Positions 37,601 through 52,138 of a stretch of DNA of 64,000 bases are shown here, one piece after another. Every line of letters starts with the position of its first letter. Position 1 is the stretch's first letter. Origin of the DNA: Flavobacterium sp. KACC 22763 (GTDB taxonomy: Bacteria > Bacteroidota > Bacteroidia > Flavobacteriales > Flavobacteriaceae); NCBI RefSeq assembly GCF_028736155.1, contig NZ_CP117879.1:2294001-2358000 (forward strand). Direction: 5' to 3'. A program made the position numbers and the translations under genes. The notes under the pieces are model-generated. The model had not been told where the DNA came from, ran no database searches, and saw only the letters and a list, made by a program, of their open reading frames with translations.

Positions 37601-37703
37601 TTGTGGTTGACTGCGCATATATAGAGCTGCACAGTAAAAAATTCAGGAAAAAGAAAAATACAAAGTACTTATCTTTTTTCTCAGATAATTGTTTAATACT
37701 CAT
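34602..37703 (-). CDS. SusC/RagA-family TonB-dependent oligosaccharide transporter
   Basis: A 1033-residue outer-membrane barrel. After a long signal peptide ending IYAQ comes a carboxypeptidase-regulatory-like domain (about 32-110). The plug (about 115-230) follows, with VVVGYGSVKKTDLTGSV and the SusC signature IYGSRGASGVIIVTTKSG, and then a 22-strand barrel to the end. It imports oligosaccharides into the periplasm using TonB energy. The gene starts 31 bp after the GH28 gene, which carries a predicted LacI-type operator at its promoter, so import and cleavage would be induced together. Confidence 0.95.
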   Translation of the reverse strand: MSIKQLSEKKDKYFVFFFFLNFLLCSSIYAQSTTIEGKITDATGMSLPGVNINEKGTKNGTSTDFEGSFKINVSNSKATLIISYLGFQTQEVSVAGKSKINVTLAEQSNSLNEVVVVGYGSVKKTDLTGSVSTISAATITERNTTSPLEAIQGSTPGVQISSASGRAGDGYKVVIRGNNSLVGSSPLYIVDGVPVDNIDFLNPQDISRMDVLKDASSAAIYGSRGASGVIIVTTKSGANVKSGINVTFDTSYGNKTAVRMPKMMNGEEWWKFHQVAYMSATPLTQTPAQLAALAGNQSPLLVSRANSGYNFDWTDAVLKPGMTQNNYLNVTGRSDSGLSYNLGFGVQSDEGLIENDSTDKYSFKLGLNHKINDKFTTGANITVARLDTQLGSDLAMQDAFRLSPLMSPWAVDAQGNEKVGTLFFLPGKLTYPDGSWAINKTSTVNPLMEIANSSQTEKTWQTVGNVFFQYQPLKWLSFKTTFAGGIENTVTSAAYKAQTNAGVTLNGKNSASIKNFNNFNYTWDNQIDLKHTFNEVHDFSVLLLQSLYSNVDETSYLYSNNQPFDVGSNNMGSGVQTSYNISSGYQKNTLSSYAVRLNYTFKDKYLLTASTRWDGSSVLSEGNKWQSFPSVALGWKISKESFLANSSVVSDLKLRASLGYTGNDNVAPYTSQALLNQQTFYANGANVVAGWQSENLANQNLTWEKTRELNFGLDYGFLNNRITGSVDVYDRLSDKLIYKQQLPAETGWKNTYANVGSVSNKGVEVLLTTKNIKSKNVNWETTFTFTKNVNKLESIYNQDQVSDIGNKLILGSELNPNYNYVYDGVWQESEAAQAASYGMAPGQARPKDLNGDGKFNQDDRTVIGNANPEWQGSLYSKLTVGNFDFNFSVLTSQGQTVLSTFHQNFADVSDRGRQKLAMDYFIPTNGTGIAANANNENPRPGPVATGAGAYWTSLFGYYRDVSYVKIKNISLGYTLDSELLKRLKISNLRIYINVLDPFVFTDFDGYDPEWAGAAFGVNRPASVTTQLGLSVKF

Positions 37704-37734: not shown

Positions 37735-39174
37735 TTAGTTGTTAATAGATTCTACTTTTTTCTCATTGATATAGGTATTTATAAAATTTATGTTTTTGAC
37801 GTTTTTTAATAAATAGAGCGAGTCTACTTTTTGAATTTTTACATTTTTCAGCGTAATATTCTCGACAGGCGATTCTTTGTAACCTTCTGCCCAAACGCTG
37901 TATTTGCCACCGTTTTTTACCGTTACATTCTCTAAACTTACATTTCTGATTGTTGGTATAAAGTTTCCTGTCTGAGATCCGTAGACATTGTAAAACATAT
38001 TCAATTTTAGAACACATTCTTTTACGGTTCCAACTTCCAGATTTCTGACGTAGATATTCTCAATGATTCCGCCTCTTTTTGAATTGGTTTTGATGCGAAT
38101 GGCGCGATCCAAATTTGGACTATCCATTACACAATTTTCAACAAATACATTATTTACTCCAGCCGAAATTTCGCTTCCAATTACAACTCCTCCGTGGCCG
38201 TCAATCATTTTGCAATTTTGCACAATAATGTTTTTACTTGGTATTGCTACTCTTCTTCCGTCTCCATCACGACCTGCTTTAATTGCAATACAATCATCTC
38301 CCGTATTGAAAGTACAGTTTCTAATTACGATATTTTGTGAATATTCAGGATCGCAGCCATCATTGTTCGGACCATGGCTATTAACCGTTACACCGTCAAT
38401 AATCATGTTGTTTGTTTTTATCGGATGTAAAATCCAAAATGGCGAATTGATAATTTTAATGTCTTTTACTAAAGCAGTATTACATTCAAAAAACTCAATA
38501 AAATTTGGTCTTAAATAACGTCCTTCTCCAAAAACTCTTTCAGAAACTGGAATTCCTTTTTCGGCCATATCAACTAAAACTTCACGATTTGTCGGGTCAT
38601 TTTGAGACGGAATGCCTTTCTTCCAGCCGTAGTTTTTTCCTCCAGACCAAATCCACCAGTTTGTGCTGTCGCCTTGACCATTTAAAGTGCCTTTTCCTGT
38701 AACCGCAATATTAGTTTTGTTTTTTGCATAAATAAGCGGAGAATAATTCATCACTTCGGTTCCTTCCCAAGAAGTATGAACAATCGGATAATCTTTCGGA
38801 TTTAAACTGAAGAGAATCTCAGCATGATCCTCTAAATGCAGATTGACATTACTTTCTAAATGAATGGCTCCTGTTAAATATTTTCCATTTGGAACTAAAA
38901 CTTTCCCACCGCCATTTGCTGCACATTCTTTTATAGCTTTCTGAAATGCTAAAGTGTTTAACGTTTTTCCATCAGCAACAGCACCAAAATCGTTGATATT
39001 ATATACTTTATCTGAAAAATGCACCTGTGGAATACTTTTTATAACCAAATCCATTGTTTTCCATGGATTCTCTGAAGAAACCGAAGAAGAATGTCTTGCG
39101 CATGATAGCATTAAAAGCCCTAAAAAGGCTAAAAAAAGAATCTTTTTTATTGTGACTATCTTATTTGTAATCAT
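37735..39174 (-). CDS. Polygalacturonase-type glycoside hydrolase, GH28 lipoprotein
   Basis: A right-handed beta-helix enzyme of 479 residues from the ATG at 39172-39174. A longer frame opens at 39213, but that start leaves almost no leader after the predicted promoter, and the shorter start puts the lipobox LMLSC directly after the signal core. GH28 motifs are complete: NNDGCD, GDDCIAIKAG, GHGGVVIGSE and RAIRIKT. The lipid anchor suggests action at the membrane surface. It heads the SusC-SusD-esterase-DUF4861 operon. A perfect palindrome at 39220-39233 directly follows its -7 box, so LacI repression is predicted. Confidence 0.92.
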   Translation of the reverse strand: MITNKIVTIKKILFLAFLGLLMLSCARHSSSVSSENPWKTMDLVIKSIPQVHFSDKVYNINDFGAVADGKTLNTLAFQKAIKECAANGGGKVLVPNGKYLTGAIHLESNVNLHLEDHAEILFSLNPKDYPIVHTSWEGTEVMNYSPLIYAKNKTNIAVTGKGTLNGQGDSTNWWIWSGGKNYGWKKGIPSQNDPTNREVLVDMAEKGIPVSERVFGEGRYLRPNFIEFFECNTALVKDIKIINSPFWILHPIKTNNMIIDGVTVNSHGPNNDGCDPEYSQNIVIRNCTFNTGDDCIAIKAGRDGDGRRVAIPSKNIIVQNCKMIDGHGGVVIGSEISAGVNNVFVENCVMDSPNLDRAIRIKTNSKRGGIIENIYVRNLEVGTVKECVLKLNMFYNVYGSQTGNFIPTIRNVSLENVTVKNGGKYSVWAEGYKESPVENITLKNVKIQKVDSLYLLKNVKNINFINTYINEKKVESINN

Positions 39175-39219
39175 TTGCACAGATTTTTCTTGTTTTATGA
39201 CCAAAAACATCATGTTTTA

Positions 39220-39233
39220 TGTAATCGATTACA
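39220..39233. promoter_or_regulatory. Predicted LacI operator of the GH28-SusC-SusD operon
   Basis: TGTAATCGATTACA is a perfect 14-bp palindrome with the central CG typical of LacI-family operators. It directly abuts the minus-strand -7 box TACTTTCG (39234-39241), so a bound repressor would block initiation. Near-identical sites stand at 49069 and 52094. Confidence 0.82.
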
Positions 39234-39265
39234 CGAAAGTAGAAAAATAGTTCTGAGACACCAAA
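39234..39265 (-). promoter_or_regulatory. Predicted promoter of the GH28-SusC-SusD operon
   Basis: Read on the minus strand, TTTG (39262-39265) and TACTTTCG (39234-39241) are 20 bp apart. This is one base off the TAnnTTTG consensus, with slightly long spacing. The 14-bp operator begins at the next base. Confidence 0.6.
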
Positions 39266-39383
39266 TTAATTTAGAAAAAAATTATATATTTAATTTTTAT
39301 TACAAATTTTAATTACATTTAATGCAAAAATTTAGATAATTTATTATCATTGTAAAACCTAAAACGTTTGAGTTTTAAATTAT

Positions 39384-39397
39384 GGTAATCGATAACA
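39384..39397. promoter_or_regulatory. Degenerate LacI operator upstream of lacI
   Basis: GGTAATCGATAACA matches the 14-bp operator at 12 of 14 positions and keeps the TAATCGAT core. It lies 66 bp before the lacI ATG, just upstream of a predicted lacI promoter (TTG 39405-39407, 17 bp, TACTTTTG 39425-39432). This suggests weak autoregulation or looping with the site at 39220. Confidence 0.55.
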
Positions 39398-39404
39398 ATA
39401 TTTA

Positions 39405-39432
39405 TTGCGTAATGAAAAAAAATGTACTTTTG
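39405..39432 (+). promoter_or_regulatory. Predicted lacI promoter
   Basis: TTG (39405-39407) and TACTTTTG (39425-39432) are spaced by 17 bp. The transcript would start about 25 nt before the ATG at 39463. Confidence 0.5.
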
Positions 39433-39462
39433 TTTAAAAATAATTCGATAAACTTTTTTTGA

Positions 39463-40491
39463 ATGAGTGAAAAAGTAACTATTTACGATATTGCTGAAAA
39501 ATTAAACATCACAGCTGCAACCGTTTCCAGAGCGTTAAACAATAATCCTAAAATAAAGGAAGCAACGCGTGAGTTGGTTATTAAAACTGCCGCTGCGATG
39601 AACTACAAGCAAAATAAACTCGCGCTAGCTTTAAAGAGTGGCCGAAGTAATAATATCGGAGTTATTGTGCCGCGTATTGACAGCAATTTTTTCGCCTCGG
39701 TTATTCGGGGAATCGAGGAAGAGCTTTATCCGCACGGTTATCAGGTTATTATCTGCCAGACTCACGAAAGCATTAAAAGGGAAAATGAAAACCTCCATAC
39801 ACTTGTAGATGCGCAGGTTGATGGTATCATGATGTCGGTTACTGGTATTTCAGACGAGAATGACAGTGCTTTCAGAAATGTACTGGAGAAAAATGTACCG
39901 CTAATATTTTTTGATAGAAGCAAACACATTGACGGTGTAAGTTCTGTAACTATTAATGACTTTAAAGGCGGTTATTTAGCCACAAAGCATTTAATTGATG
40001 AAGGTTGCAGAAACATTGCTCATTTCTCTGGAGACCAATCGTTAGATATTTTCAAAAACAGGTTTTTAGGATACAAACAAGCCTTATTGGACAACGGACT
40101 TCCTTTTAATGAAGAATATGTTATTTTTACCAAAAGTAGCGTAGATGCTGGTAAAGAGGCTGTCGATAAACTTTTGCAATTGCAAACTCCACCTGACGCT
40201 ATTTTTTCTTCGAGTGATTTTGCAGCACTGGGAGCAATTCAAGAATTAAAAGAGCGAAACATCAGTATTCCAAGTGAGTTTTGTGTTGCTGGTTTCAGTA
40301 ACGAACCTTTTACTAAATTTATGGAATTATCTATTACTTCTGTAGATCAATCGCCGCTTGAAATGGGAAGAATGTCTGCTCGTGTTTTCTTAGAACAGGT
40401 AGATAAAACAGATACTATTAAAATTGAAAAAAAGGTTGTCCTTGCACCAGAATTACATATTCGTAAATCTTCTACGAGAACAAATTTCTAG
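39463..40491 (+). CDS. LacI-family transcriptional repressor of uronate/pectin genes
   Basis: A 342-residue regulator. Residues 4-50 form the LacI helix-turn-helix and hinge (TIYDIAEKLNITAATVSRALNNN). Residues about 60-335 are the periplasmic-binding-like sensor with NIGVIVPRIDSNFFASVIRGIEEE, VDGIMMSV, FDR and SVDQSPLEMGRMSA. It is divergent from the GH28-SusC operon and convergent with uxaB-uxaA. Four copies of a LacI-type palindrome in this window sit at the promoters of GH28-SusCD, kduI, the transporters and near lacI itself. It is therefore the likely repressor of the pathway, released by an intermediate such as KDG, galacturonate or tagaturonate. The inducer is inference. Confidence 0.92.
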   Translation: MSEKVTIYDIAEKLNITAATVSRALNNNPKIKEATRELVIKTAAAMNYKQNKLALALKSGRSNNIGVIVPRIDSNFFASVIRGIEEELYPHGYQVIICQTHESIKRENENLHTLVDAQVDGIMMSVTGISDENDSAFRNVLEKNVPLIFFDRSKHIDGVSSVTINDFKGGYLATKHLIDEGCRNIAHFSGDQSLDIFKNRFLGYKQALLDNGLPFNEEYVIFTKSSVDAGKEAVDKLLQLQTPPDAIFSSSDFAALGAIQELKERNISIPSEFCVAGFSNEPFTKFMELSITSVDQSPLEMGRMSARVFLEQVDKTDTIKIEKKVVLAPELHIRKSSTRTNF

Positions 40492-40503
40492 CAAAAAATA
40501 CAA

Positions 40504-40642
40504 TTTTAAACCATATAAGTTATATAAGATAATTTAAGTTTTATCTAAACATATAATTTATATGGTTTTTCTTTTGCTAAAAAAAAAGTCCATCTAAAAA
40601 GCAAACTTTTAAATGGACTTATATAACTTATATGGTTTAAAA
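40504..40642. repeat. Perfect 25-bp inverted repeat between convergent genes
   Basis: Arms 40504-40528 and 40618-40642 (core AAACCATATAAGTTATAT and its complement) are exact complements. A second partial arm, AATTTATATGGTTT (40555-40568), offers an alternative fold. The element joins the 3' ends of lacI and uxaA and encloses the uxaA terminator. Confidence 0.7.
40586..40620 (-). terminator. Terminator of the uxaB-uxaA operon
   Basis: AAGTCCAT (40586-40593) pairs with ATGGACTT (40613-40620). On the minus strand the stem is followed by TTTTTTTTT-like sequence. It lies 24 bp after the uxaA stop. Confidence 0.7.
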
Positions 40643-40643
40643 A

Positions 40644-42266
40644 TTACAATGAAACTCCTCTTTTCCAAGGAATAAAATCATTCTGATTTAAAATAGCAGC
40701 TTTTGTTTTAATGTTACCGCTGGCAACATCAATAATAAACTCAAGCATTTCGTCTGCCATTTCGTCAATAGATTTTTCGCCTGTAATAATTCCTCCAGTA
40801 TCAATATCGATAATATCAGACATTTTGTTTGCTAATTGTGTGTTTGATGAAATCTTTACAACTGGCGCAATTGGATTTCCTGTTGGAGTTCCTAAACCTG
40901 TTGTAAACAATACCATATTGGCTCCAGAACCCACCATAGCCGTTGTACATTCTACGTCATTTCCTGGCGTACATAACAATGTAAAACCTGGTTCGCTAAT
41001 ATATTCTCCATAATCGTAAACACCTCTAATTGGTGATGTTCCACCTTTTTTAGCAGCACCAGCCGATTTCATAGCATCTGTAATCAAACCGTCTTTGATG
41101 TTTCCTGGAGACGGATTCATATCAAATCCTGAACCTGCATCAACAACTGTTTTTTCGTACCATTTCATTAAGTCTAAGAAACGTTTTCCATCCTTATCAT
41201 CTACACAACGATTTACCAATTCTTGCTCTACTCCACATAATTCAGGGAATTCAGAAAGAATTGTAGTTCCTCCCAAAGCAACTAAATGATCCGATAAAAC
41301 TCCCAATGTTGGGTTTGCAGAAATTCCAGAGAATCCATCAGATCCACCGCACTCTAAACCAATTCTTAATTTAGATAATGGAGCTGGCTCTCTCTTAATC
41401 TCGTTTGCTTTTTTAATTGCTTCAAAAGTGTCTTTTACCACACTGCTCAACATCGTTTCAATTGTTCCGATAGACTGCTGATCGTAGATTAAAACAGGCT
41501 TTTTACTGTTTGGATTAATTGCATCTAAAGCTTCTTTGAAAATTGAAATTTGAAGATTCTGGCATCCTAAACTCAAAACCGTTGCTCCAGCCACATTTGG
41601 ATTGTTTACATAACCAGCCAAAAGCTTAGCCAAACTATGAGAATCCTGACGAATTCCGCCACATCCACCTTGGTGCGTGATGAATTTTACCTCAATATTG
41701 TTGAATAAATTAGCATCGTTTGAAGCTTCTTGATTTCCTGCTCCACCCGTTTCTGATTTCACCAAAGAACGCAACAATAACTGATAATCGTTCTCTTTTG
41801 GTTTCATCAATTCTTTCTCAAAAATATCTTTTAAGATTTCGATGTTTCTGTTTTCACAAAAAACTAATGGAAAAAATAACCATACATTTTCTGTTCCAAC
41901 CTGTCCATCTTCTCTATGATAGCCCTGCCACGTTCTGTCTTTCCATTTATCAACATTTGGAGCGTTCCAGCCAATAGTTTCTGTTTTACCAGTAACTTTA
42001 TCACTTTCGTGTTTTACGTTTGCTGTAGAAAGCAATCCGCCTTTTTCGATTCTAGCGCTTGCTTTTCCAACCAAAACACCATACATAATGATTCTGTCCC
42101 CTACATTAAAAGGAACCATTGCAATCTTATGTTTCATTTTTACATCAGACTCTACGGTAATTGATTGTCCTTCAAAATCAATCACTTCGCCTGCAGTAAG
42201 ATCCACCAAAGCAACCGCAACATTGTCGGTTGGGTTTACTTTTATTAATTTTTTCTGCGTTGCCAT
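40644..42266 (-). CDS. uxaA: Altronate dehydratase
   Basis: A 540-residue cytoplasmic enzyme. The N-terminal 100 residues form the small SAF-like domain (NPTDNVAVALVDLTAGEVI), and the rest is the UxaA catalytic domain with GYHREDGQVGTENVWL, THQGGCGGIRQD, LGCQNLQ, GLECGGSDGFSGISANP and CTPGNDVECTTAMVGSGANM. The conserved cysteines in GGCGG and ECGGSD are metal/active-site candidates. It dehydrates D-altronate to 2-keto-3-deoxygluconate. Both domains are in one chain, as in other full-length UxaA proteins. It lies 40 bp after uxaB, so the two form an operon. Confidence 0.95.
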   Translation of the reverse strand: MATQKKLIKVNPTDNVAVALVDLTAGEVIDFEGQSITVESDVKMKHKIAMVPFNVGDRIIMYGVLVGKASARIEKGGLLSTANVKHESDKVTGKTETIGWNAPNVDKWKDRTWQGYHREDGQVGTENVWLFFPLVFCENRNIEILKDIFEKELMKPKENDYQLLLRSLVKSETGGAGNQEASNDANLFNNIEVKFITHQGGCGGIRQDSHSLAKLLAGYVNNPNVAGATVLSLGCQNLQISIFKEALDAINPNSKKPVLIYDQQSIGTIETMLSSVVKDTFEAIKKANEIKREPAPLSKLRIGLECGGSDGFSGISANPTLGVLSDHLVALGGTTILSEFPELCGVEQELVNRCVDDKDGKRFLDLMKWYEKTVVDAGSGFDMNPSPGNIKDGLITDAMKSAGAAKKGGTSPIRGVYDYGEYISEPGFTLLCTPGNDVECTTAMVGSGANMVLFTTGLGTPTGNPIAPVVKISSNTQLANKMSDIIDIDTGGIITGEKSIDEMADEMLEFIIDVASGNIKTKAAILNQNDFIPWKRGVSL

Positions 42267-42306
42267 AATTAACCTTTGTTCTTTGTTCTTTTTGTTGTGT
42301 TTTTTT

Positions 42307-43752
42307 TTATTTTATTCTTTCTTGAAACTTAGCAAAACCAGCTTCAATTCCGTTTGAATCAATTTCTTCTAATGCAATTGTAATTGCTTTTGTCAACCCT
42401 GGAATTTCAGTTAAATCTTGGTCCCAGAAACCTTTGTTTTGCAATGTCAAACGAGCGATTTTTTCGTAATCATCAGATTTCCATAATCCGTTAAAGAAAG
42501 TTGTGATATCTTCACCATCTTTAACCGGCAAACTTTGACCATTCCAAGTTCCTTTGTAGAAACGAATTAAACTCGCTAATGAAAAAGTCAAGTTAACAGG
42601 CAATTTTTTGTTAGCATTATAATATCCTAATAAACTAGGCAAAACTCTTACTTTGAATTTCGAAACAGAATTTAATGCAATATCAGCAAGTGCATGTTTG
42701 ATAAATGGATTTTTAAATCGGTCCATTACTTCCTCAGAATAGGCCGTAATTTCATTTTTGTCCATATCAAGAGTTTCACTAATTTCACTAATAACGCTAT
42801 TTACAAATTTTCCCGTAAAATCTCCGTTAACAGTTTCCATTACCAGTTTATTACCATGTAAAAGTGAAAAAGGAACCATTGCCGTATGCGCACCGTTTAA
42901 AATACGAACTTTAATCATTTTAAAAGGACGTATATCATCAACGATTTTTACATTCAAATTTGTTTTATGAAAAGGCAATTTTGCTTTTAGATCATCTCCC
43001 CCTTCAATAGCCCAAAGGAAAAAAGGTTCAGCCGCAACAATTAAATTGTCCTGATAATCTAATTTATTATTGTATTCTTCAATTTCAGCTCTTGGATAGC
43101 CAGGAACAATTCTGTCAACCAAAGTGCTATGATAGGTACAAGCCTCTGATACCCACGTTTTAAACGCATCTTCTAATTTCCATAAATCAACATATTGCAA
43201 AATAATTTTTTTAAGCGTCTCAGAGTTATAATCAATTAATTCACAAGGAATTATTGTAACTCCTTTTGAAGCATCTCCATTAAAATGCTTAAATCTTTCG
43301 TATAATAAAACCGTCAATTTTGCAGGAAATGACACTGGCGGCTGCATGTCTGGAGTATCACTTTCAATAAATTCAATTCCAGCTTCTGTAGTATTAGAAA
43401 CAATAAACTGAAGTTCTTCTTCTTTGGCTAAAGCCAAATAATTTGCAAATTCAGTATATGGGTTTATCGTTTTTACAATATTATTAATTAACACAATATC
43501 TTGTATCTTTTCACCCTTTTTAATTCCGTTCATAAACAAGGTATAAAGACCGTCCTGATCATTAATCATATTTACCATACCATCTTTCAAAGGTTGAACT
43601 ACAGCAATACCGGCATTAAAATCAACTTCTTTATTTAATTTGTCAAAAGCATAATCAACAAAGGCTCTTAAAAAGTTACCTTCTCCAAACTGAACTACTT
43701 TAATTGGCTGTAACTTTTCTAATCCTGTATTTATTCTATTTAATTTTTTCAT
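42307..43752 (-). CDS. uxaB: Tagaturonate reductase (altronate oxidoreductase)
   Basis: A 481-residue NADH-dependent dehydrogenase of the mannitol dehydrogenase family. The Rossmann start VVQFGEGNFLRAFVDYAFD, the NTTEAGIEF segment, the ERF..IIPCELIDYN region and the conserved KVRILNGAHTAMVPFS are visible. It reduces D-tagaturonate to D-altronate, the second step of galacturonate breakdown. It follows the KDPG aldolase gene by 220 bp, long enough for a promoter, and is followed by uxaA. Two loosely spaced TGTAA/TTACA half-site pairs lie in that gap, but no copy of the 14-bp operator. Confidence 0.93.
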   Translation of the reverse strand: MKKLNRINTGLEKLQPIKVVQFGEGNFLRAFVDYAFDKLNKEVDFNAGIAVVQPLKDGMVNMINDQDGLYTLFMNGIKKGEKIQDIVLINNIVKTINPYTEFANYLALAKEEELQFIVSNTTEAGIEFIESDTPDMQPPVSFPAKLTVLLYERFKHFNGDASKGVTIIPCELIDYNSETLKKIILQYVDLWKLEDAFKTWVSEACTYHSTLVDRIVPGYPRAEIEEYNNKLDYQDNLIVAAEPFFLWAIEGGDDLKAKLPFHKTNLNVKIVDDIRPFKMIKVRILNGAHTAMVPFSLLHGNKLVMETVNGDFTGKFVNSVISEISETLDMDKNEITAYSEEVMDRFKNPFIKHALADIALNSVSKFKVRVLPSLLGYYNANKKLPVNLTFSLASLIRFYKGTWNGQSLPVKDGEDITTFFNGLWKSDDYEKIARLTLQNKGFWDQDLTEIPGLTKAITIALEEIDSNGIEAGFAKFQERIK

Positions 43753-43972
43753 TTTAAATTTTCTTTAATGCGTTATAAATAACCATTTATAAACCTTATT
43801 TCTTTATTTCTGCCTTTAAAATTGTAAATGAAACATTACACCCGATTGAGTAAAATAAAGCCGGCTGTGAGGAATGGCTAGCTAAATTTTTCAAGCGTAA
43901 TGTTCAATTACAATCTCTAAAAATCTAAAAAAAACTTATAAAATAAGGAGTTAGGCATGATTACCCCTTAAT

Positions 43973-44641
43973 CTATTTTCTAATATCTTTTATAATGTCA
44001 AGAACCTGTTTCACTTTTGCAGTAAGTTCGTCGAAGTCTTTTTGGTCTAATATGTCTTTTGAAATTAACTGTGAGCCCAAACCAACGCAGGTTGCTCCGG
44101 CATTTAACCATGAACTCAAACTTTCTTTTGTTGGATAAACACCGCCTGTAGGCATAATGTTTGTCCACGGACATGGGCCTTTTATCGCTTTAATAAACTC
44201 TGGCCCGTAAGTATCAGCTGGAAATAGTTTTACAATTTCGCAACCTAATTCTTCCGCTCTAGCAATTTCTGTCAAAGTACCGCATCCTGGCGACCAAAGC
44301 ACTTTTCTACGATTACATGCTATAGCTATATCTTCTCTAAAAACTGGAGTTACAATAAAATTTGCTCCCAAGCTCATGTACAAAGAAGCCGAAGCCGCAT
44401 CTGTAATAGAGCCAACTCCTAGAATCATACCTGGCAGTTCTGCCAAAGCATATTTGTTTAAAGCTCCAAAAACTTCGTGAGCAAAATCACCTCGGCTAGT
44501 AAATTCCATTAATCGGGATCCACCGTCATAACATGCTTTTAAAACTTTCTTACTCAGCTCAATATCAGAATGAAAAAACAACGGAACCATACCGTTCTCT
44601 TTCATGGTCTGAGCTACTTCTATTCTTGAATATTTTGCCAT
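43973..44641 (-). CDS. kdgA: 2-keto-3-deoxy-6-phosphogluconate aldolase
   Basis: A 222-residue class I aldolase with a TIM barrel. The Schiff-base lysine is Lys138 in EIVKLFPAD, and Glu46 (RLMEFTSRG) fits the catalytic glutamate. PTGGV near the end binds phosphate. It splits KDPG into pyruvate and glyceraldehyde 3-phosphate, the last step of the pathway. The start ATG at 44639-44641 is 12 bp after the KDG kinase stop, so the two are co-transcribed in pathway order. Bifunctional action on 4-hydroxy-2-oxoglutarate is possible, as in Eda. Confidence 0.92.
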   Translation of the reverse strand: MAKYSRIEVAQTMKENGMVPLFFHSDIELSKKVLKACYDGGSRLMEFTSRGDFAHEVFGALNKYALAELPGMILGVGSITDAASASLYMSLGANFIVTPVFREDIAIACNRRKVLWSPGCGTLTEIARAEELGCEIVKLFPADTYGPEFIKAIKGPCPWTNIMPTGGVYPTKESLSSWLNAGATCVGLGSQLISKDILDQKDFDELTAKVKQVLDIIKDIRK

Positions 44642-44653
44642 TTTTATTTAAAA

Positions 44654-45673
44654 TTATCTTGATACTAATGCAGAACCATCACCATCAATCATATTCTCAA
44701 CTTCTTTTAAAGTAACCAAGTTATAATCTCCTGCAATTGTATGTTTTAGACAACAAGCTGCAACTGCAAAATCTAAAGCTCTCTGGTTATTATTATATTC
44801 CAATAAACCGTAAATTAATCCACCCATAAAGGCATCTCCACTTCCTACACGGTCTACAACTGGCGTAACTTCTTTAACTGCTGCACTATAAATCGCTTTT
44901 CCGTCGTATAAGATTCCTCCGATTCTCTGGTGAGACGCACTAACAGAATAACGAAGTGTCGTTGCTGCAATTTTTAAGCTCGGAATCAATTCAAACAATT
45001 TATCATATACTGCTGGAAGTGATTTTTCGTCCTGATAATTCGGATTTACTTTCGGGATTCCTAACATGAAATAAGCTGTATCTATATCTCCCAAAATCAC
45101 ATTGCTGTATTTTAGCATTTCTGGCATAACCTCACTTGGCGTTTTTCCGTATTGCCAAAGTTTTGACCTATAGTTTAGATCGCATGAAATTTTAATTCCT
45201 TTTTTATGAGCGACTTTAATCGCTTCTAAACAAGCTTCAGCTGCACTTTCTGAAATTGCTGGTGTAATACCACTCCAATGAAACCATTCTGCACCTTCCA
45301 GAACTTTATCCCAATCCACCTGTCCTTTTTCTATCGTTGACATGGCACTGTGAGCACGATCGTAAACCACATTGCTTCCGCGAGTTCCTGCTCCAGTTTC
45401 TAAGAAATAGATTCCTAAACGCTCTCCTCCGTAAACAATGTTTTTAGACTCGACATTCATTTTCCTGATTTCTTTTAAAGCAGAAAAACCAATTTCATTT
45501 TCAGGCAATCTGGTAACAAATTCAGCGTTTACTCCATAATTAGCCAGAGAAACACATACATTAAATTCACCGCCACCATACGTAGCACCAAATGCTGTAG
45601 ATTGCGAAAAACGCAAATGTCTTTCTGTCGATAAACGCAGCATGATTTCTCCAAATGCAACTACTCTACTCAT
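44654..45673 (-). CDS. kdgK: 2-keto-3-deoxygluconate kinase, PfkB family
   Basis: A 339-residue ribokinase-like sugar kinase. It starts with VVAFGEIMLRLS and has the substrate-side GGGEFNVCVSLANYG. The PfkB signature near the C-terminus, RVGSGDAFMGGLIYG, contains the catalytic base Asp280. It phosphorylates KDG to KDPG. Its partner aldolase gene follows by 12 bp. Upstream is a 323-bp repeat-filled gap separating it from uxaC, so it may have its own promoter or rely on read-through. Confidence 0.93.
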   Translation of the reverse strand: MSRVVAFGEIMLRLSTERHLRFSQSTAFGATYGGGEFNVCVSLANYGVNAEFVTRLPENEIGFSALKEIRKMNVESKNIVYGGERLGIYFLETGAGTRGSNVVYDRAHSAMSTIEKGQVDWDKVLEGAEWFHWSGITPAISESAAEACLEAIKVAHKKGIKISCDLNYRSKLWQYGKTPSEVMPEMLKYSNVILGDIDTAYFMLGIPKVNPNYQDEKSLPAVYDKLFELIPSLKIAATTLRYSVSASHQRIGGILYDGKAIYSAAVKEVTPVVDRVGSGDAFMGGLIYGLLEYNNNQRALDFAVAACCLKHTIAGDYNLVTLKEVENMIDGDGSALVSR

Positions 45674-45997
45674 TTCTTATATTTTTAATTTTACCATTAA
45701 GACATTAAGAAAATTAAGCTTCACTTTATGTTCTCTTTGCGATTAAAGGTTAAGTTTATTAAGCCTACTTGCTTAATTATCTTTTATTATTAAGTAACTA
45801 TTTAAACTCAAAACTTAATTTTCTTATTTTTAATTTTACCATTAAGAGATTAAGAAAATTAAGCTTAACTGTGTGCTTTCTTTACTATTAAAGGTTACGT
45901 TTATTAAGCCCACTCGCTTAATTATCTTTATTATTTAAGTAACTAATCTATTACACCAAAAAACTTAATTTTCTTAATGCCTTAATGGTTAAAAAAA
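45674..45997. repeat. 324-bp gap made of direct and inverted repeats
   Basis: A 40-bp segment (TTTTTAATTTTACCATTAAG at its start) occurs at 45682-45721 and again at 45827-45866, 145 bp apart, with similar flanks including GCTTAATTATCTTT. An inverted copy ends the region at about 45963-45996 (ACTTAATTTTCTTAATGCC). No gene was seen between uxaC and kdgK. Confidence 0.65.
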
Positions 45998-47398
45998 TTA
46001 AAACTTAAAATATTCTTTAGCGTTGTTGTATGAAATATCAGAAACTAACTTTCCGATCCATTCCATATCGTTTGGAAGTTCTCCTCTTTTGATTTCGTCT
46101 CCCAAAAGGTTACATAAAATACGTCTGAAATATTCGTGTCTTGGGAACGATAAGAAACTTCTAGAATCTGTCAACATTCCAACAAAACAGCTGATTAAAC
46201 CCATATTTGAAAGCGCATTCAATTGTTTTGTCATTCCATCTTTTTGATCTAAGAACCACCATCCAGAACCAAATTGTACTTTTCCGCGAACGCTTCCGTC
46301 GTTGAAATTTCCAATCATCGTTGCCATAACTTCGTTATCAGCAGGGTTCAAGTTATAAATAATCGTTTTAGTCAATTTATCTTTGCTATCTAAAGCGTTT
46401 AAGAAAGCAGATAATTTTTGCGCTTGCGGATAATCTCCAATAGAATCCCAACCTGTATCTGGGCCTAAGATTCTGTGCATACGAGCGTTATTGTTACGCA
46501 ATGCTCCTAAGTGAAACTGCTGAACCCATCCAAACTCGTGATACGTTTCTGATAAGAAAACTAAAATAGCACTATGGAATTTTAAAACATCTTCTGGAGA
46601 CAATTCGCCATTTTCTCTTTTCTTTTTGAAAATAGCATTTACTTCACTTTCTGTATAGTTCTCAAAATCAATTTGATTTAATCCGTGATCACTTAATTTA
46701 CATCCGTTTGCATTAAAGAATTCGATTCTTTTTCTTAAAGCAGACTGTAAATCAGCATATGTGTTAATTGCAATACCGGACACATCCCCTAATGTGTCCA
46801 GATATGCATTATATCCATCATTAGCAATTAAGATGGCTTTATCAGGTCTGAAAGCCGTACTCATTTTAATTCCTGTCGAATTATTTGCGAATTTTTGGTG
46901 AAATTCTAAAGAATCAATTGGATCTTCTGTAGTACAAACTAATTCAGCATTTACTTTTTTAAGAAGGTTTTGTGTGCTGTACGCCTGAGAATTTATTTTC
47001 TCAGAAGTTTCGATATAAATTTTCTCTGCCGATTTTTCATTCAACAAATCATAAATATCAAAATAACGAGCTAATTCTAAATGCGTCCAGTGATACAACG
47101 GATTACGCATTGTGTAAGGAACTGTTTTTCCCCAGTTTAAGAACTTATCTTTATCTGAACCATTTCCTGTAACAAACTGTTCGTTGATTCCTAAAGTACG
47201 CATTGCACGCCATTTGTAGTGATCACCATTAATCCAAACCTGTGTAATGTTATCGAAGATTTTATCCTCTGCAATAAACTGCGGATTTAAGTGATTGTGG
47301 TAATCAATAATGGGCTGATTTTTAGAGTAATTATGGTATAACTCTTCAGCATATTTATTTTCTAATAAAAAATTATCGTGTATGAATTTCTGGCTCAT
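45998..47398 (-). CDS. uxaC: Glucuronate/galacturonate isomerase
   Basis: A 466-residue TIM-barrel isomerase of the amidohydrolase superfamily. The metal site signature IIDYHNHLNP is at the start, followed by TEDPIDSLEFHQK, the QFHLGALRNNN motif, and the SFVGMLTDSRSFLSFPRHEYFRR segment near the end. It converts galacturonate to tagaturonate (and glucuronate to fructuronate). It is third in the kduI-kduD-uxaC operon, 24 bp after kduD, so both branches of pectin uronate breakdown are induced together under the operator at 49069. Confidence 0.95.
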   Translation of the reverse strand: MSQKFIHDNFLLENKYAEELYHNYSKNQPIIDYHNHLNPQFIAEDKIFDNITQVWINGDHYKWRAMRTLGINEQFVTGNGSDKDKFLNWGKTVPYTMRNPLYHWTHLELARYFDIYDLLNEKSAEKIYIETSEKINSQAYSTQNLLKKVNAELVCTTEDPIDSLEFHQKFANNSTGIKMSTAFRPDKAILIANDGYNAYLDTLGDVSGIAINTYADLQSALRKRIEFFNANGCKLSDHGLNQIDFENYTESEVNAIFKKKRENGELSPEDVLKFHSAILVFLSETYHEFGWVQQFHLGALRNNNARMHRILGPDTGWDSIGDYPQAQKLSAFLNALDSKDKLTKTIIYNLNPADNEVMATMIGNFNDGSVRGKVQFGSGWWFLDQKDGMTKQLNALSNMGLISCFVGMLTDSRSFLSFPRHEYFRRILCNLLGDEIKRGELPNDMEWIGKLVSDISYNNAKEYFKF

Positions 47399-47422
47399 GT
47401 CTTTTAAAATATAATTTGAAAA

Positions 47423-48214
47423 TTATTCTTCGTTTGAAGGTTTTCCTATTGTAGCAAGGATTCCGCCGTCAACATACAAGATGTGACCGTTTACAAAATC
47501 ACTCGCTTTTGATGATAAAAATATCGCTGCTCCAGCCAAATCGCTCGGGTCTCCCCATTTTGCAGCTGGCGTTCTGCTAATGATAAAATCGTTAAACGGA
47601 TGCCCGTCAACTCTAATTGGTTTTGTCTGTTCTGTTGCAAAATATCCAGGACCGATTCCGTTGATCTGAACATTGTATTTTGCCCATTCTGTTGCCATGT
47701 TTTTAGTCAGCATTTTCAAACCACCTTTTGCAGCAGCATAAGCAGAAACTGTATTTCGTCCCAATTCACTCATCATAGAGCAAATGTTGATGATTTTTCC
47801 TTGACGTCTTTCAATCATTCCTTTTGCAACATGCTTAGAAACGATAAACGGACTTACCAAATCAATATCAACTACTTCTCTAAAGTCTGATACTTCCATA
47901 TCAAGCAACGGAATTCTTTTGATAATTCCAGCATTATTGATCAAGATATCGATTGACCCAACTTCGCTTTCAATTTTTGCAACAGCAGCTTTTACTTCTT
48001 GCTCTTCGGTTACATTAAATTTGTATCCTACTGCATTGATTCCTTCACTTTTTAATTCGGCTACGGCATGATCAATTTTTTCTTGAGAAGAATTTCCGTT
48101 CACAACAATTGTTGCACCCGCCTGACCTAATCCTTTTGCCATTGCCATTCCCAGTCCGTGTGTACTTCCTGTTATTAAGGCAACTTTTCCTTTTATATCA
48201 AACAAATTTGTCAT
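47423..48214 (-). CDS. kduD: 2-dehydro-3-deoxy-D-gluconate 5-dehydrogenase, SDR family
   Basis: A 263-residue short-chain dehydrogenase. TGSTHGLG (15-22) binds NAD(P), NNAG follows, and the catalytic set is Ser146, Tyr159 and Lys163 (YAAAK). The family match is strengthened by its place one base after kduI. KduD reduces 3-deoxy-D-glycero-2,5-hexodiulosonate to KDG, which finishes the branch for unsaturated galacturonate ends released by the PL10 and GH105 enzymes. Confidence 0.93.
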   Translation of the reverse strand: MTNLFDIKGKVALITGSTHGLGMAMAKGLGQAGATIVVNGNSSQEKIDHAVAELKSEGINAVGYKFNVTEEQEVKAAVAKIESEVGSIDILINNAGIIKRIPLLDMEVSDFREVVDIDLVSPFIVSKHVAKGMIERRQGKIINICSMMSELGRNTVSAYAAAKGGLKMLTKNMATEWAKYNVQINGIGPGYFATEQTKPIRVDGHPFNDFIISRTPAAKWGDPSDLAGAAIFLSSKASDFVNGHILYVDGGILATIGKPSNEE

Positions 48215-48215
48215 C

Positions 48216-49055
48216 TTATCTTAAATCAGTGATTTTACAAACATCCATATCTCCGTAATCTAAGTTTTCACCAGCCATTCCCCAGATAAAAGTATAATTG
48301 CTAGTTCCAGAACCTGAGTGAATAGACCAAGGCGGAGAAATTACTGCCTGATGATTGTTCATCCAGATATGTCTTGTTTCTTGTGGCTGCCCCATAAAGT
48401 GACAAACTGCCTGATCTTGCGGAATATCTAAATAAAAATATACTTCCATTCTACGATCGTGAACGTGAGCTGGCATGGTATTCCAAACACTTCCTGGTTT
48501 CAATTCTGTCATTCCCATTTGCAATTGGCAAGTGGTAACCACACTTCCAATAATCATTTGGTTTACAGTACGGTGATTTGCCGTTTCCATTGTTCCCAAT
48601 TGTAATTTATTAGCTTCAGCTAAACTTACTTTTTTAGTTGGGTAAGTCGTATGCGCTGGAGCAGAGTTTAAATAGAATTTAGCAGGATTGTTTTTGTCAT
48701 CACTTTTAAAAACCACTTCTTTATTTCCTGCTCCGATATACAAAGCATCTTTAAAACCTAACTCATAAGTTGTTCCTTCTACGACAACAGAACCGCTTCC
48801 TCCAACATTGATGATTCCTAATTCTCTACGCTCTAAAAAATAAGGCGCTTTTAAAGGATCGATCGTTTCTAAAGCTAAATCACCTTTTACAGGAACTGCA
48901 GAACCCGCAATGTATCTGTCGTAATGCGAATAAACCAAAACCACTTCATCTTCCTGCATTAAGTCATCAATTAAGAATTCTTCTCTCAATTGCTGCGTAT
49001 CATACTTTTTTACAGCTTCTGGGCTTGACGCGTATCTTGAACTATATTTTGTCAT
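48216..49055 (-). CDS. kduI: 5-keto-4-deoxyuronate isomerase
   Basis: A 279-residue cupin enzyme. The zinc ligands are His197, His199, Glu204 and His246 (PAHVHDRRMEVYFY and PPWSIHSG), with the same spacing as the known Escherichia coli enzyme. It isomerises 5-keto-4-deoxyuronate to 3-deoxy-D-glycero-2,5-hexodiulosonate. It heads the kduI-kduD-uxaC operon. A predicted promoter with the operator lies immediately upstream, leaving a leader of about 20 nt. Confidence 0.95.
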   Translation of the reverse strand: MTKYSSRYASSPEAVKKYDTQQLREEFLIDDLMQEDEVVLVYSHYDRYIAGSAVPVKGDLALETIDPLKAPYFLERRELGIINVGGSGSVVVEGTTYELGFKDALYIGAGNKEVVFKSDDKNNPAKFYLNSAPAHTTYPTKKVSLAEANKLQLGTMETANHRTVNQMIIGSVVTTCQLQMGMTELKPGSVWNTMPAHVHDRRMEVYFYLDIPQDQAVCHFMGQPQETRHIWMNNHQAVISPPWSIHSGSGTSNYTFIWGMAGENLDYGDMDVCKITDLR

Positions 49056-49068
49056 AATTTTAAATTAA

Positions 49069-49082
49069 TGTAATCGATTGCA
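49069..49082. promoter_or_regulatory. Predicted LacI operator of the kduI operon
   Basis: TGTAATCGATTGCA differs from the perfect palindrome at 39220 by one base and is identical to the site at 52094. It abuts the minus-strand -7 box TAATTTTG (49083-49090) and lies 14 bp before the kduI ATG. Confidence 0.82.
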
Positions 49083-49113
49083 CAAAATTATATTTTTATA
49101 TTTAAATAGCATA
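49083..49113 (-). promoter_or_regulatory. Predicted promoter of the kduI operon
   Basis: The -7 box TAATTTTG (49083-49090, minus strand) fits TAnnTTTG exactly. At 19-bp spacing the -33 position reads TATG (49110-49113), three of four bases of TTTG. The operator follows with no gap. Confidence 0.65.
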
Positions 49114-49153
49114 ATTGAAACGAAAAAAATATTTCAATTCTGTTCATTTTTCT

Positions 49154-50470
49154 TTATAATTCGACTTTTTTCATTCGAGGAACCAGAATATGCATTATCA
49201 GCCAAGCCAATAAATATGAGGCTCCACAAATACAGAACATAATAAAATAACCTGTTTCTACTTTTCCAAGTTTAGTATAGTAAACAAACATGTTTTTCTG
49301 AACTAGCAATGTCAGCAAAATTCCGCCGAGCGCTCCAAACATTCCTCCTAATCCGGTAACAGATGCTGTTGCTTTTTTAGGAAACATATCTGATACTGTT
49401 GTAAAGATATTGGCACTCCACGCCTGATGCGCAGAAACCGCCAATCCGATTACCAAAATTGCAAACCAGATATTTATAGTTCCCAATTGCTGAGCGAACA
49501 AAACCGGCAATACAGCAAATGCATAAAGCAGCATACTAGTTTTACGAGCTTTGTAGGCAGGCCAATTGTTATTTATTAATTTCAAAGGAAGCCATCCTCC
49601 GCCAATGCTTCCAATACTTCCAATCATATAAACTAATGCGCAAGGCCAAATAATCTCTGTTGCATTAAGCTTGTATTGTTTCATCAAGAAATCTGGCAAC
49701 CAGAACAAATAAAACCACCAAACAGGATCTGTCAATAATTTACCAATTGCAAAAGCCCAAGTCTGGCGAAAGGATAATAATTTTATCCAAGAAACCTTTT
49801 CTTTTGACTCTTCTTCTACTTCCTCTACTTGATCTGAAGTAATATATTCTAATTCTGCTTGAGATAAACGTTTTTGCTTCTGAGGCACTTCATATAACAA
49901 AAACCATAAAGCAAGCCAAATAAACCCTACAATCCCTGTTATGATAAATGCCCACTGCCAGCCATAGTTTTCTGCAATATGAGGCACTGTTAAAGGTACG
50001 ATTATAGCACCAATATTACTTCCAGAATTAAAAATCCCTGTTGCAAGAGCTCTTTCTTTCTGCGGAAACCATTCTGCTGTAGCCTTAATTGCTGCCGGAA
50101 AGTTTCCTGCTTCTGTAACTCCTAAAAACACTCGGGCAATTAAAAATCCTCCTGTTCCTGTTGCCAATGCATGTCCAATTGCCGCTAAACTCCATAATCC
50201 TGTTGCAATGGCATAACCTAACTTAGTTCCCAACTTATCAATAATTCCTCCCGCAACCAGCATTCCGAGCGCATATGCAATTTTAAATGCCAGTTCGATA
50301 TTCGAGTAATCTATAACCTCCTGTTCGGGAGTCCAGTGAAACGCTTCTGCCAAAAAAGGCCGAAGGTAACTTATTACATTTCTATCCAGATAATTGACAG
50401 TTGTAGCAAAAAAAACTAAACTGCAAATAGTCCAACGGTATTTTCCTATTGCTGCATTAGCTTGGTTCAT
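49154..50470 (-). CDS. MFS hexuronate transporter (ExuT-like), copy 1
   Basis: A 438-residue inner-membrane carrier with twelve predicted helices. It belongs to the anion:cation symporter branch of the major facilitator superfamily: RWTICSLVFFATTVNYLDRNVISYL at the first helix, RVFLGVTEAGNFPAAIKATAEWFP in helices 4-5, and NSGSNIGAIIVP. Family members carry galacturonate or glucuronate with protons. It lies 47 bp after its paralogue, in one transcript under the promoter at 52108. A second carrier next to it suggests different substrates, for example galacturonate and unsaturated or oligomeric uronates. Confidence 0.88.
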   Translation of the reverse strand: MNQANAAIGKYRWTICSLVFFATTVNYLDRNVISYLRPFLAEAFHWTPEQEVIDYSNIELAFKIAYALGMLVAGGIIDKLGTKLGYAIATGLWSLAAIGHALATGTGGFLIARVFLGVTEAGNFPAAIKATAEWFPQKERALATGIFNSGSNIGAIIVPLTVPHIAENYGWQWAFIITGIVGFIWLALWFLLYEVPQKQKRLSQAELEYITSDQVEEVEEESKEKVSWIKLLSFRQTWAFAIGKLLTDPVWWFYLFWLPDFLMKQYKLNATEIIWPCALVYMIGSIGSIGGGWLPLKLINNNWPAYKARKTSMLLYAFAVLPVLFAQQLGTINIWFAILVIGLAVSAHQAWSANIFTTVSDMFPKKATASVTGLGGMFGALGGILLTLLVQKNMFVYYTKLGKVETGYFIMFCICGASYLLAWLIMHILVPRMKKVEL

Positions 50471-50517
50471 GATGTGGTTGTGGTTTAGGTTGGTTAGTTA
50501 GTTTTTGAGAAATCTCT

Positions 50518-51984
50518 TTAGAGATCTGTAATCGGACTGTATTTTGGAACCAATGTTTTCATTACAATCCAGCCTGTTAAATAACAAACTGCGCAAATAG
50601 AAAATATGATAAAATATCCAGCTTCAATTCCTTTAAATCCCATAAAAGCCATATTGGTATCTTTTGCATAATCAAACAATACTCCAGATCCTTTATTAAT
50701 CAACGTTGAACCAACTCCACCTGCTAAACCTCCAATTCCTGTAATAGTTGCAATTGCTTTTTTAGGAAACATATCTCCTACTGTTGTAAAAATATTTGCC
50801 GACCAAGATTGGTGAGCCGCACCAGCAATTCCGATGATAATTACCGGAACCCAATAACTGATGTATCCTAATGGCTGTGCAATCAAGGCTAATAATGGGA
50901 AAAATGCAAATATTAACATTGCTCTCATTCTTCCTTCGTACGGATTCATTCCTTTTTTCTCTACGAAATACGTTGGCAACCAGCCTCCAATAATGGATAA
51001 TAATGTAATCATGTAAAGCACAAATAAAGGTAATGCCGCTTCTGTAGAATCCATTCCATACACAGAACTTAAATACGCTGGAGTCCAGAATAAAAAGAAC
51101 CACCAAACGCCATCTGTCATGAATTTACCAAATGCAAAAGCCCAAGTTTGTTTGTATTTGAAGCAATCTGCTAAAGACACTTTTCCTCCAGCTTCAGGCT
51201 TAAAACCAATCTTGCTGTCTTCAATATCATCTTGCTGAATATAAGCCAATTCTTCTGGAGAAACTCTTGAATGTTTTTCTGGTTTATCGTACATAAACAT
51301 CCAAAATCCCATCCAAACAAAACCTAAAGCTCCGATAATGATAAATGACATTTCCCATCCAAAAGATTTTGCGATAAACGGAATTGTAATGGGCGCTGCC
51401 AAGGCTCCAACTGTCGCTCCAGCGTTGAAAATACTAGTTGCAAAAGCTCTGTCTTTTTTAGGAAAATATTCTGCTGTAGTTTTAATTGCCGCAGGGAAGT
51501 TTCCTGCTTCTCCAACTGCTAGAACAAAACGAGCAAAAATAAATAAAGCAACACTCACATTGATAACCAACGCTGTATCGCTTATTGTACTGATTATTTC
51601 TTTTGAACCATGAAAGCCCACTAACCATTCTCCTGCAATAATTCCTGAAGTTGCAATACCGCAGAAAGCATGAAGACAGGCTCCTACTGACCAGATTCCG
51701 ATTGCCCAAAGAAATCCTTTTTTAGTATCCAACCAATCTACAAATCGTCCTGCAAACAATAATGACACTGCATAAAAAATAGAAAACAAAGCAGTGATAT
51801 TTCCGTAGTCGTTATTGGTCCAGTGAAATTCTGGCGCGATAAAATCGCTCCATGTTAACGACAATACTTGTCTGTCTAGGTAATTGATTGTAGTTGCAAA
51901 AAACAGCAATGCACAAATACTCCAACGGTATTTTCCTGTGGTTTTGACACTCTGGTTTACTGCAACGGTCTCGGTTTGATTCAT
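50518..51984 (-). CDS. MFS hexuronate transporter (ExuT-like), copy 2
   Basis: A 488-residue paralogue of the downstream carrier with the same signatures (RWSICALLFFATTINYLDRQVLSL, VGEAGNFPAAIKTTAEYFPKK). It has an extra stretch of about 30 residues between helices 3 and 4 (region GIIAGEWLVGFHGSKEIIS), which explains the greater length. The promoter and operator at 52094-52138 lie 110 bp upstream and should control both carriers. A role in galacturonate uptake is inferred from family and context. Confidence 0.88.
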   Translation of the reverse strand: MNQTETVAVNQSVKTTGKYRWSICALLFFATTINYLDRQVLSLTWSDFIAPEFHWTNNDYGNITALFSIFYAVSLLFAGRFVDWLDTKKGFLWAIGIWSVGACLHAFCGIATSGIIAGEWLVGFHGSKEIISTISDTALVINVSVALFIFARFVLAVGEAGNFPAAIKTTAEYFPKKDRAFATSIFNAGATVGALAAPITIPFIAKSFGWEMSFIIIGALGFVWMGFWMFMYDKPEKHSRVSPEELAYIQQDDIEDSKIGFKPEAGGKVSLADCFKYKQTWAFAFGKFMTDGVWWFFLFWTPAYLSSVYGMDSTEAALPLFVLYMITLLSIIGGWLPTYFVEKKGMNPYEGRMRAMLIFAFFPLLALIAQPLGYISYWVPVIIIGIAGAAHQSWSANIFTTVGDMFPKKAIATITGIGGLAGGVGSTLINKGSGVLFDYAKDTNMAFMGFKGIEAGYFIIFSICAVCYLTGWIVMKTLVPKYSPITDL

Positions 51985-52093
51985 AGTAAGTGGGTATTAT
52001 AGTTTTTGTAATTTTTGGTAATCTTAAAAGACTATGTTTACTGCTTTCTAAAAATAGTATAATCAATAAATTAACACCTTAAAAGAAAAATAA

Positions 52094-52107
52094 TGTAATC
52101 GATTGCA
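52094..52107. promoter_or_regulatory. Predicted LacI operator of the transporter operon
   Basis: TGTAATCGATTGCA is identical to the kduI site. It touches the -7 box of the transporter promoter. Flanks are also alike (AATG before, CACAAA around the box), so the two promoter modules may share ancestry. Confidence 0.82.
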
Positions 52108-52138
52108 CAAATATAGTTTTTAATCTGTACAATCCAAA
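52108..52138 (-). promoter_or_regulatory. Predicted promoter of the transporter operon, consensus match
   Basis: On the minus strand TTTG (52135-52138), exactly 19 bp, then TATATTTG (52108-52115). This is a full match to the Bacteroidota consensus, with the operator beginning at the next base. Confidence 0.75.

Follow-up and report, generated by a model that had tools for sequence, protein, structure and literature searches.

According to the accessible portion of PMC3878776, KdgR (BT0487) and UxaR (BT0824) are predicted LacI-family uronate regulators in Bacteroides; KdgR is counted there as one of the regulons that hold few periplasmic or extracellular genes, and the pectin and rhamnogalacturonan polysaccharide utilization loci of Bacteroides are placed under hybrid two-component systems (HTCS_Rgu). 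Here we examine a LacI-family gene in a 64-kb stretch of the Flavobacterium sp. KACC 22763 genome (the whole of which is hereafter called the window), together with a short palindromic site found at promoters of pectin and uronate genes. The encoded regulator resembles KdgR and UxaR in its family and in its presumed control of glucuronate/galacturonate pathways in the Bacteroidota (PMC3878776, same portion). Unlike theirs, its site also precedes pectate lyases and two SusC/SusD pairs, a comparison drawn from published descriptions. A further likeness is to ManR of B. thetaiotaomicron, where one transcription factor stands over SusC/D, extracellular enzymes and inner metabolism; ManR, however, belongs to the GntR family and acts on mannosides (as given in PMC3878776). 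As far as that source extends, this type of regulon is already known from the LacI uronate regulators of Bacteroides, and the Flavobacterium regulon is a member of it with wider reach.

Within the genus, the available part of PMC8056085 reports that F. johnsoniae on pectin increased an 18-gene cluster, as judged by proteomics, and that its tonB260 and sus73, in a predicted operon with a polygalacturonase, rose 60-100-fold; this cluster is presumably the orthologous locus. The lacI gene in the available part of PMC9131120 is a different one, in a fucoidan/starch-linked cluster. We found no paper joining LacI, Flavobacterium, pectin, operator and regulon in a search that had most of the subscription literature outside its range.

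Within the window, TGTAATCGATTRCA has exactly three exact matches, each standing before a gene set on the minus strand, on its promoter side. As with KdgR and UxaR, the predicted regulon holds uronate catabolism genes, an operator preceding kduI-kduD-uxaC and another the carriers. Each minus-strand operator adjoins the 3' side of a -7 box. The features concerned are as follows.

39220..39233, minus strand: main operator TGTAATCGATTACA of the GH28-SusC-SusD promoter, exact in 80 of 80 aligned loci, window included
39234..39241, minus strand: -7 box TACTTTCG directly before the main operator; all 79 named loci reaching the box have TAnnTTCG, which matches five of the six consensus letters
49069..49082, minus strand: operator of the kduI promoter, TGCAATCGATTACA in minus-strand reading, present in 77 of 77 named loci reaching kduI
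49083..49090, minus strand: -7 box TAATTTTG of the kduI promoter, adjoining the operator
52094..52107, minus strand: operator of the carrier promoter, TGCAATCGATTACA in minus-strand reading, exact match
52108..52115, minus strand: -7 box TATATTTG of the carrier promoter, adjoining the operator
39463..40491, plus strand: LacI-family regulator of 342 aa, of PurR/CcpA length (Pfam PF00356 and PF13377; nearest solved structures CcpA)

A preliminary description of this DNA had reported three identical operator copies at uronate/pectin promoters, each starting right after the -7 box. The copies and their genes are as it had them, and the adjacency holds at all three window sites and at all seven exact sites in the genome. 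When up to three mismatches were allowed, TGTAATCGATTRCA gave 29 window matches against 15.66 expected from shuffling, and meaning is therefore confined to the strong sites. A candidate at 39166 (two mismatches) was rejected, as it overlaps the likely GH28 start codon and beyond that overlap is unconserved in the 80 aligned loci. Operators before kdgK-eda and uxaBA were likewise rejected, with no exact site and no 6/6 -7 box there, which fits a single long kduI-to-uxaA transcript as in relatives.

We propose that the LacI encoded at 39463-40491 is, in all likelihood, a local pectin-use repressor that binds TGYAATCGATTRCA at seven promoters. The site is very probably the operator of this LacI, covering the transcription start. 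A LacI dimer would bind the 14-bp palindrome, which should cover the start point since it directly follows the -7 box, and the bound protein would block RNA polymerase at all seven promoters in a fixed register. This would be ordinary repression geometry, as start-site occlusion is the classical repressor position. The promoters in question would drive secreted pectate lyases, GH28 enzymes, two SusC/SusD importers, inner-membrane carriers and the kduI-to-uxaA uronate pathway, with a pectin breakdown product, a uronate or an acid of the 2-keto-3-deoxygluconate (KDG) type, predicted to release LacI. Through a weaker site upstream of its own promoter, lacI would also be autoregulated, and binding might be cooperative. 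Sites, register, target genes and co-occurrence were read from the sequences, and from these we infer binding, repression and the effector. The protein has the traits of the LacI/GalR family, namely an N-terminal LacI helix-turn-helix and a periplasmic-binding-type sugar domain (PF00356 at 46.1 bits and PF13377 at 102.7 bits, both above cut-off), and the palindromic operator with central CG is present as TGYAATCGATTRCA at seven targets in its own genome and at 156 sites in named loci, this LacI being the presumed binder.

Across the 5.56-Mb genome there were seven exact TGTAATCGATTRCA places, three of them inside the window, which makes up 1.2 % of the sequence. All seven precede pectin or uronate genes and directly follow a TAnnTTTG-type -7 box, so the concern raised beforehand, that the motif might be common at unrelated genes, was not borne out among exact places. 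The four outside the window are as follows.

780 kb: before a pectate lyase with a type IX secretion system (T9SS) tail
2189 kb: before a GH28 gene
3425 kb: before a SusC/SusD pair with a DUF5123/DUF4957 lipoprotein
4513 kb: before a pectate lyase carrying a CBM77 module and a T9SS tail

As a control, TGYAATCGATTRCA read backwards had no exact place in this genome, and TGTAATCGATTRCA read backwards gave two forward and three reverse matches at up to one mismatch. Four one-mismatch places of the operator itself were present, including one (572814) before a further pectate lyase with a poor -7 box. A joint search for -7 box plus operator (up to two mismatches) added the lacI-proximal site and 1851753, 2214322 and 2698811, against three for the backwards control. 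At L016:6736-6904, a one-mismatch operator with a poor -7 box is flanked by a pectate lyase on one side and a cyclic-nucleotide-binding-domain protein on the other.

Conservation was then assessed in relatives. In 80 named Flavobacterium loci we counted 156 exact sites near lacI, and wherever the locus reached far enough the site was present (79/79 GH28 and 77/77 kduI promoters, assigned by position relative to lacI), answering the earlier proviso that it might be absent at orthologous genes that keep lacI; the offset-0 boxes read TAnnTTCG at GH28 and TAnnTTTG at kduI at all sites. Among 150 relatives, own genome included, the 30 with an orthologue (identity of at least about 60 %, or above 70 % for long fragments) held 161 exact places and the other 120 held six, with 10 places for the backwards control across all 150. 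An exact place was present in 27 of the 30, and none was found in the seven genomes carrying only a LacI paralogue of 34-39 %. One orthologue genome without an exact place (G061) has CGTAATCGATTACG instead at kduI and GH28. Two of the six exact places in orthologue-free genomes were inspected (G024, G080) and set aside as exceptions, as both fall inside reading frames. The 60 % LacI orthologues of G094 and G148 (loci L180 and L181) each contain one in-frame TAA, with UxaA-type genes still nearby.

As the counts in relatives share ancestry, a scan of the family weighs more. In 249 genomes from 235 genera, with an orthologue listed at E ≤ 1e-100, the -7-plus-operator signal was found in 35, a listed orthologue in 37 and both in 34; the backwards control gave two matches. 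The apparent exception with signal and no listed orthologue (G307) was dismissed, as it encodes a 63 % LacI beside its sites, and therefore 35 of 35 signal-bearing genomes encode the orthologue. Conversely, the 37 listed carriers comprise 34 with the signal, two with variants and one with none; G375 and G376 were discounted as exceptions once their inspected loci proved to carry variant sites. The expectation that the motif tracks this lacI thus found support well beyond the genus. In a scan of the phylum the signal appeared in 17 of 247 genomes, four of them outside the family. Three of these four have it immediately before kduI, and a 44-60 % LacI is encoded close by (the -7 box that is in register in G480 points away from kduI); for the fourth (G461) no reference gene was found within 12 kb. 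Scans of 397 and 398 genomes served solely as a source of extra lacI loci, outside the co-occurrence counts.

Forty family loci provided 70 intergenic sites with an exact core, at which the register of box and operator was examined. At 56 of these sites a -7 box scoring 5/6 or more stood at offset 0 (23 of them 6/6), against a background of 3.0 % per offset, and offsets +1 to +25 had 0-5 each. Offsets -2 and -1 had 23 and 6 boxes, for the most part the same box counted again by reading on into the operator's TG. Box-like octamers also peak at +26 to +28 (11, 12 and 6), as expected for the -33 distance. Exceptions were recorded at kduI in G005, G031 and G051 (offset -2) and at GH28 in G078 (offset -1), and therefore register 0 is strongly preferred, not absolute. 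Of the fixed register claimed initially, the part concerning this genome's exact sites stood; in distant kin the offset is usually, not always, exactly 0. Two further arrangements were seen: in G302 a pectate lyase is preceded by twin operators separated by 17 bp (L263:9510-9540), and in G025 an exact operator with a near copy beside it precedes a small protein judged by eye to be secreted (L170:2780-2816).

Sites, targets and co-occurrence together argue for the proposal that this LacI governs import, cleavage and breakdown as one regulon, with repression suggested by the operator's position. A number of observations nevertheless weigh against it. In F. johnsoniae, the part of PMC8056085 at hand describes a pectate lyase raised in proteomics and not by quantitative PCR, and galacturonate failed to mimic pectin for colony expansion, which is a different readout. 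One-mismatch places in the genome include one within a reading frame (3703673) and two of which the flanks alone were inspected (4405355 and 4457858). Exact sites lacking an adjacent -7 box occur in orthologue genomes (one before a SusC-like gene in G053, two in G025), two orthologue genomes (G094, G148) have neither an exact place nor a convincing weaker one, and in G163 the orthologue is present with no site found within 19.5 kb. Conversely, G106, one of the seven genomes with only a distant LacI paralogue, and G117 (another family) each hold one one-mismatch -7-plus-operator match with no orthologue listed. Shared ancestry of the co-occurrence counts, chiefly within the genus, counts here too. 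Finally, the genome encodes eight LacI-type regulators, and the assignment to this one therefore rests on co-occurrence and adjacency.

The preliminary description also mentioned a 12/14 copy before lacI, and this proved to be conserved as a weaker, distinct form.

39384..39397, plus strand: second, weaker operator GGTAATCGATAACA, two mismatches, 164 bp from the main operator and shortly before the lacI promoter; its core GTAATCGATAACA is shared by 80 of 80 aligned loci, window included
39425..39432, plus strand: likely lacI -7 box TACTTTTG; TAYTTTTG in 80 of 80 aligned loci

The weaker form GYAATCGATAAC was found in 90 of 91 close loci, which may count the same species twice (as named loci and as G handles), and in part of the distant loci. 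Rule-based detection placed a second site within one mismatch in 90/91 close loci. Of 84 distant loci, 66 had a main operator, and 36 of these 66 had such a second site, compared with 0.1 % of shuffled stretches; a GATAAC-type weak half was common to 26 of the 36. The distant share is biased upward, since 20 loci were picked for showing two sites and since the tree and spacing sets omit 22 of 62 upstream regions (those with no protein sequence in the data set), 19 of them distant loci, of which only two show a site within one mismatch in the lacI-proximal stretch, possibly a main operator in each case. Spacings to the main operator were 148, 154, 163-165, 173-176, 180, 183-187, 195-198, 201 and 279 bp, most of which form a comb with teeth about 10.5 bp apart (164/174/185/196). 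Seven loci (L331-L337, in G060, G066, G926, G864, G841, G891 and G972) carry a tandem duplicate lacI.

Two explanations of this second site were weighed. That it serves only to autoregulate lacI, with the comb reflecting shared ancestry, we consider evenly poised between right and wrong. Five of the seven second copies in tandem-lacI loci keep their own second site (at most two mismatches) with no main operator upstream, and a strict pair test on spacing was not significant; opposing it are the clustered spacing tests, in which control distances phase more weakly. Less probable, and somewhat doubtful as it stands, is that dimers on the promoter and lacI-proximal operators form a helically phased DNA loop of about 164-196 bp that locks both divergent promoters in the manner of GalR. 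E. coli GalR loops gal without a tetramer helix, through two operators about 113 bp apart and in a phase-sensitive way; the Flavobacterium spacing differs, at 148-201 bp (one at 279) between divergent promoters, and looping there is hypothetical. Beyond the frequency of the second site over shuffled stretches, a loop is favoured by the finding that, for a period of 10.5 bp, 128 of 133 spacings deviate by no more than a quarter turn from a single phase, itself selected on these data, with out-of-phase spacings limited to 148 (three times), 180 and 201. Moreover, R(10.5) was 0.645 with 49 clusters and 0.579 with 19 (p about 0.002), exceeding three control distances at every cut, and Brownian and Ornstein-Uhlenbeck traits simulated on the tree reached the observed value in 0-1 of 2000 runs. 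On the other hand, 14 path-independent tree pairs gave p=0.27 (13 pairs with a larger minimum difference, p=0.20), and looping was downgraded from main finding after this test. The control distances themselves reached p 0.0005-0.005 with 49 clusters, and cluster p-values are therefore inflated by relatedness; the best period also shifts to 11.7-11.8 in thinned sets, and no second site was seen in many genus members whose LacI is about 65-68 % identical. The length and C-terminus of this LacI may point away from a lac-type tetramer helix: the 342-aa protein is near PurR/CcpA in length, and its alignment with E. coli LacI, whose C-terminal tetramerization helix lies at about 340-357, stops at residue 304 of 360. 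No Bacteroidota LacI loop turned up among the literature matches listed. A phased loop between the operators is thus suggestive only. We are more hesitant still about its extension to the whole Flavobacteriaceae, in which such a loop would shut the pectin locus through a strong start-site operator at GH28/SusC and a deliberately weaker one, usually with a GATAAC half, at the lacI promoter, the spacing evolving in whole turns (164, 174, 185 and 196 bp).

It is very unlikely that the palindrome instead serves a different, CcpA-like or Crp-like, global regulator in catabolite control. CcpA and PurR, which are dimeric LacI-family repressors, are close by sequence to this LacI among solved structures, CcpA being nearest, and are of similar length. 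Their operators are palindromes with a central CG, and the sequence fits the cre form bound by CcpA. Among the literature matches listed, the motif string was met in a single paper, which concerns S. aureus CcpA. Against this rival stand the number and nature of the exact own-genome sites (only seven, all pectin/uronate) and a presence that tracks one lacI orthologue; unlike those systems, the Flavobacterium regulon is local to pectin, with no phosphotransferase system co-repressor implied. That a short AT-rich palindrome in an AT-rich genome reflects chance or conserved promoter sequence, with no regulator binding, is scarcely credible given the backwards-pattern controls and conservation from genus to family.

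The genes around lacI are listed below.

32916..34589, minus strand: SusD lipoprotein (NCBIfam SusD-type matches, under curated cut-offs)
34602..37703, minus strand: SusC outer-membrane importer (NCBIfam TIGR04056)
37735..39213, minus strand: GH28 polygalacturonase-type enzyme (Pfam PF00295)
40644..42266, minus strand: uxaA-type altronate dehydratase (PF20629, PF04295)
42307..43752, minus strand: uxaB, tagaturonate reductase (NF002969)
43973..44641, minus strand: 2-keto-3-deoxy-6-phosphogluconate (KDPG) aldolase (NF005499)
44654..45673, minus strand: KDG kinase, PfkB family (PF00294; specific NCBIfam models under cut-off)
45998..47398, minus strand: uxaC, uronate isomerase (NF002794, PF02614)
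47423..48214, minus strand: kduD-type dehydrogenase (top model gluconate 5-dehydrogenase NF005488 above cut-off; kduD models under cut-off)
48216..49055, minus strand: kduI, 5-dehydro-4-deoxy-D-glucuronate isomerase (NCBIfam NF002091, above cut-off)
49154..50470, minus strand: major facilitator superfamily (MFS) carrier 2 (PF07690)
50518..51984, minus strand: MFS carrier 1, uronate-type by context (NCBIfam TIGR00893, under cut-off)

The true start of the GH28 gene may lie at about 39174. From GH28 on downstream, as far as about 20358, the minus-strand pectin-type genes follow one another collinearly, no gap between them exceeding about 300 bp, and because of this much of the cluster may be under one operator; the carbohydrate-active nature of cluster genes beyond those scanned was judged by eye. 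Upstream of the GH28 promoter, an AT-rich block (39262-39330) is highly conserved in 80 loci, in which the GH28 leader has drifted, and may be a site for another regulator. Further along, 15664-20007 encodes a protein of 1447 aa, in which a collagen-like unit (KGDKGDQGEKGDKLTFDDLSDSDKLAL) recurs about 20 times almost unchanged, and the open antisense frames there are probably a by-product of the repeat alone.

These findings provide a testable regulon rule, in which one start-site operator marks the pectin genes under this repressor, and which can flag unnamed pectin genes such as that for the DUF5123/DUF4957 lipoprotein at 3425 kb. They also offer a ready-made promoter-operator design for Bacteroidota genetics, and the spacing comb makes repressor looping in the Bacteroidota directly testable. 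For the organisms themselves, the rule concerns pectin use, a trait linked to plant-surface colonization in Flavobacterium.

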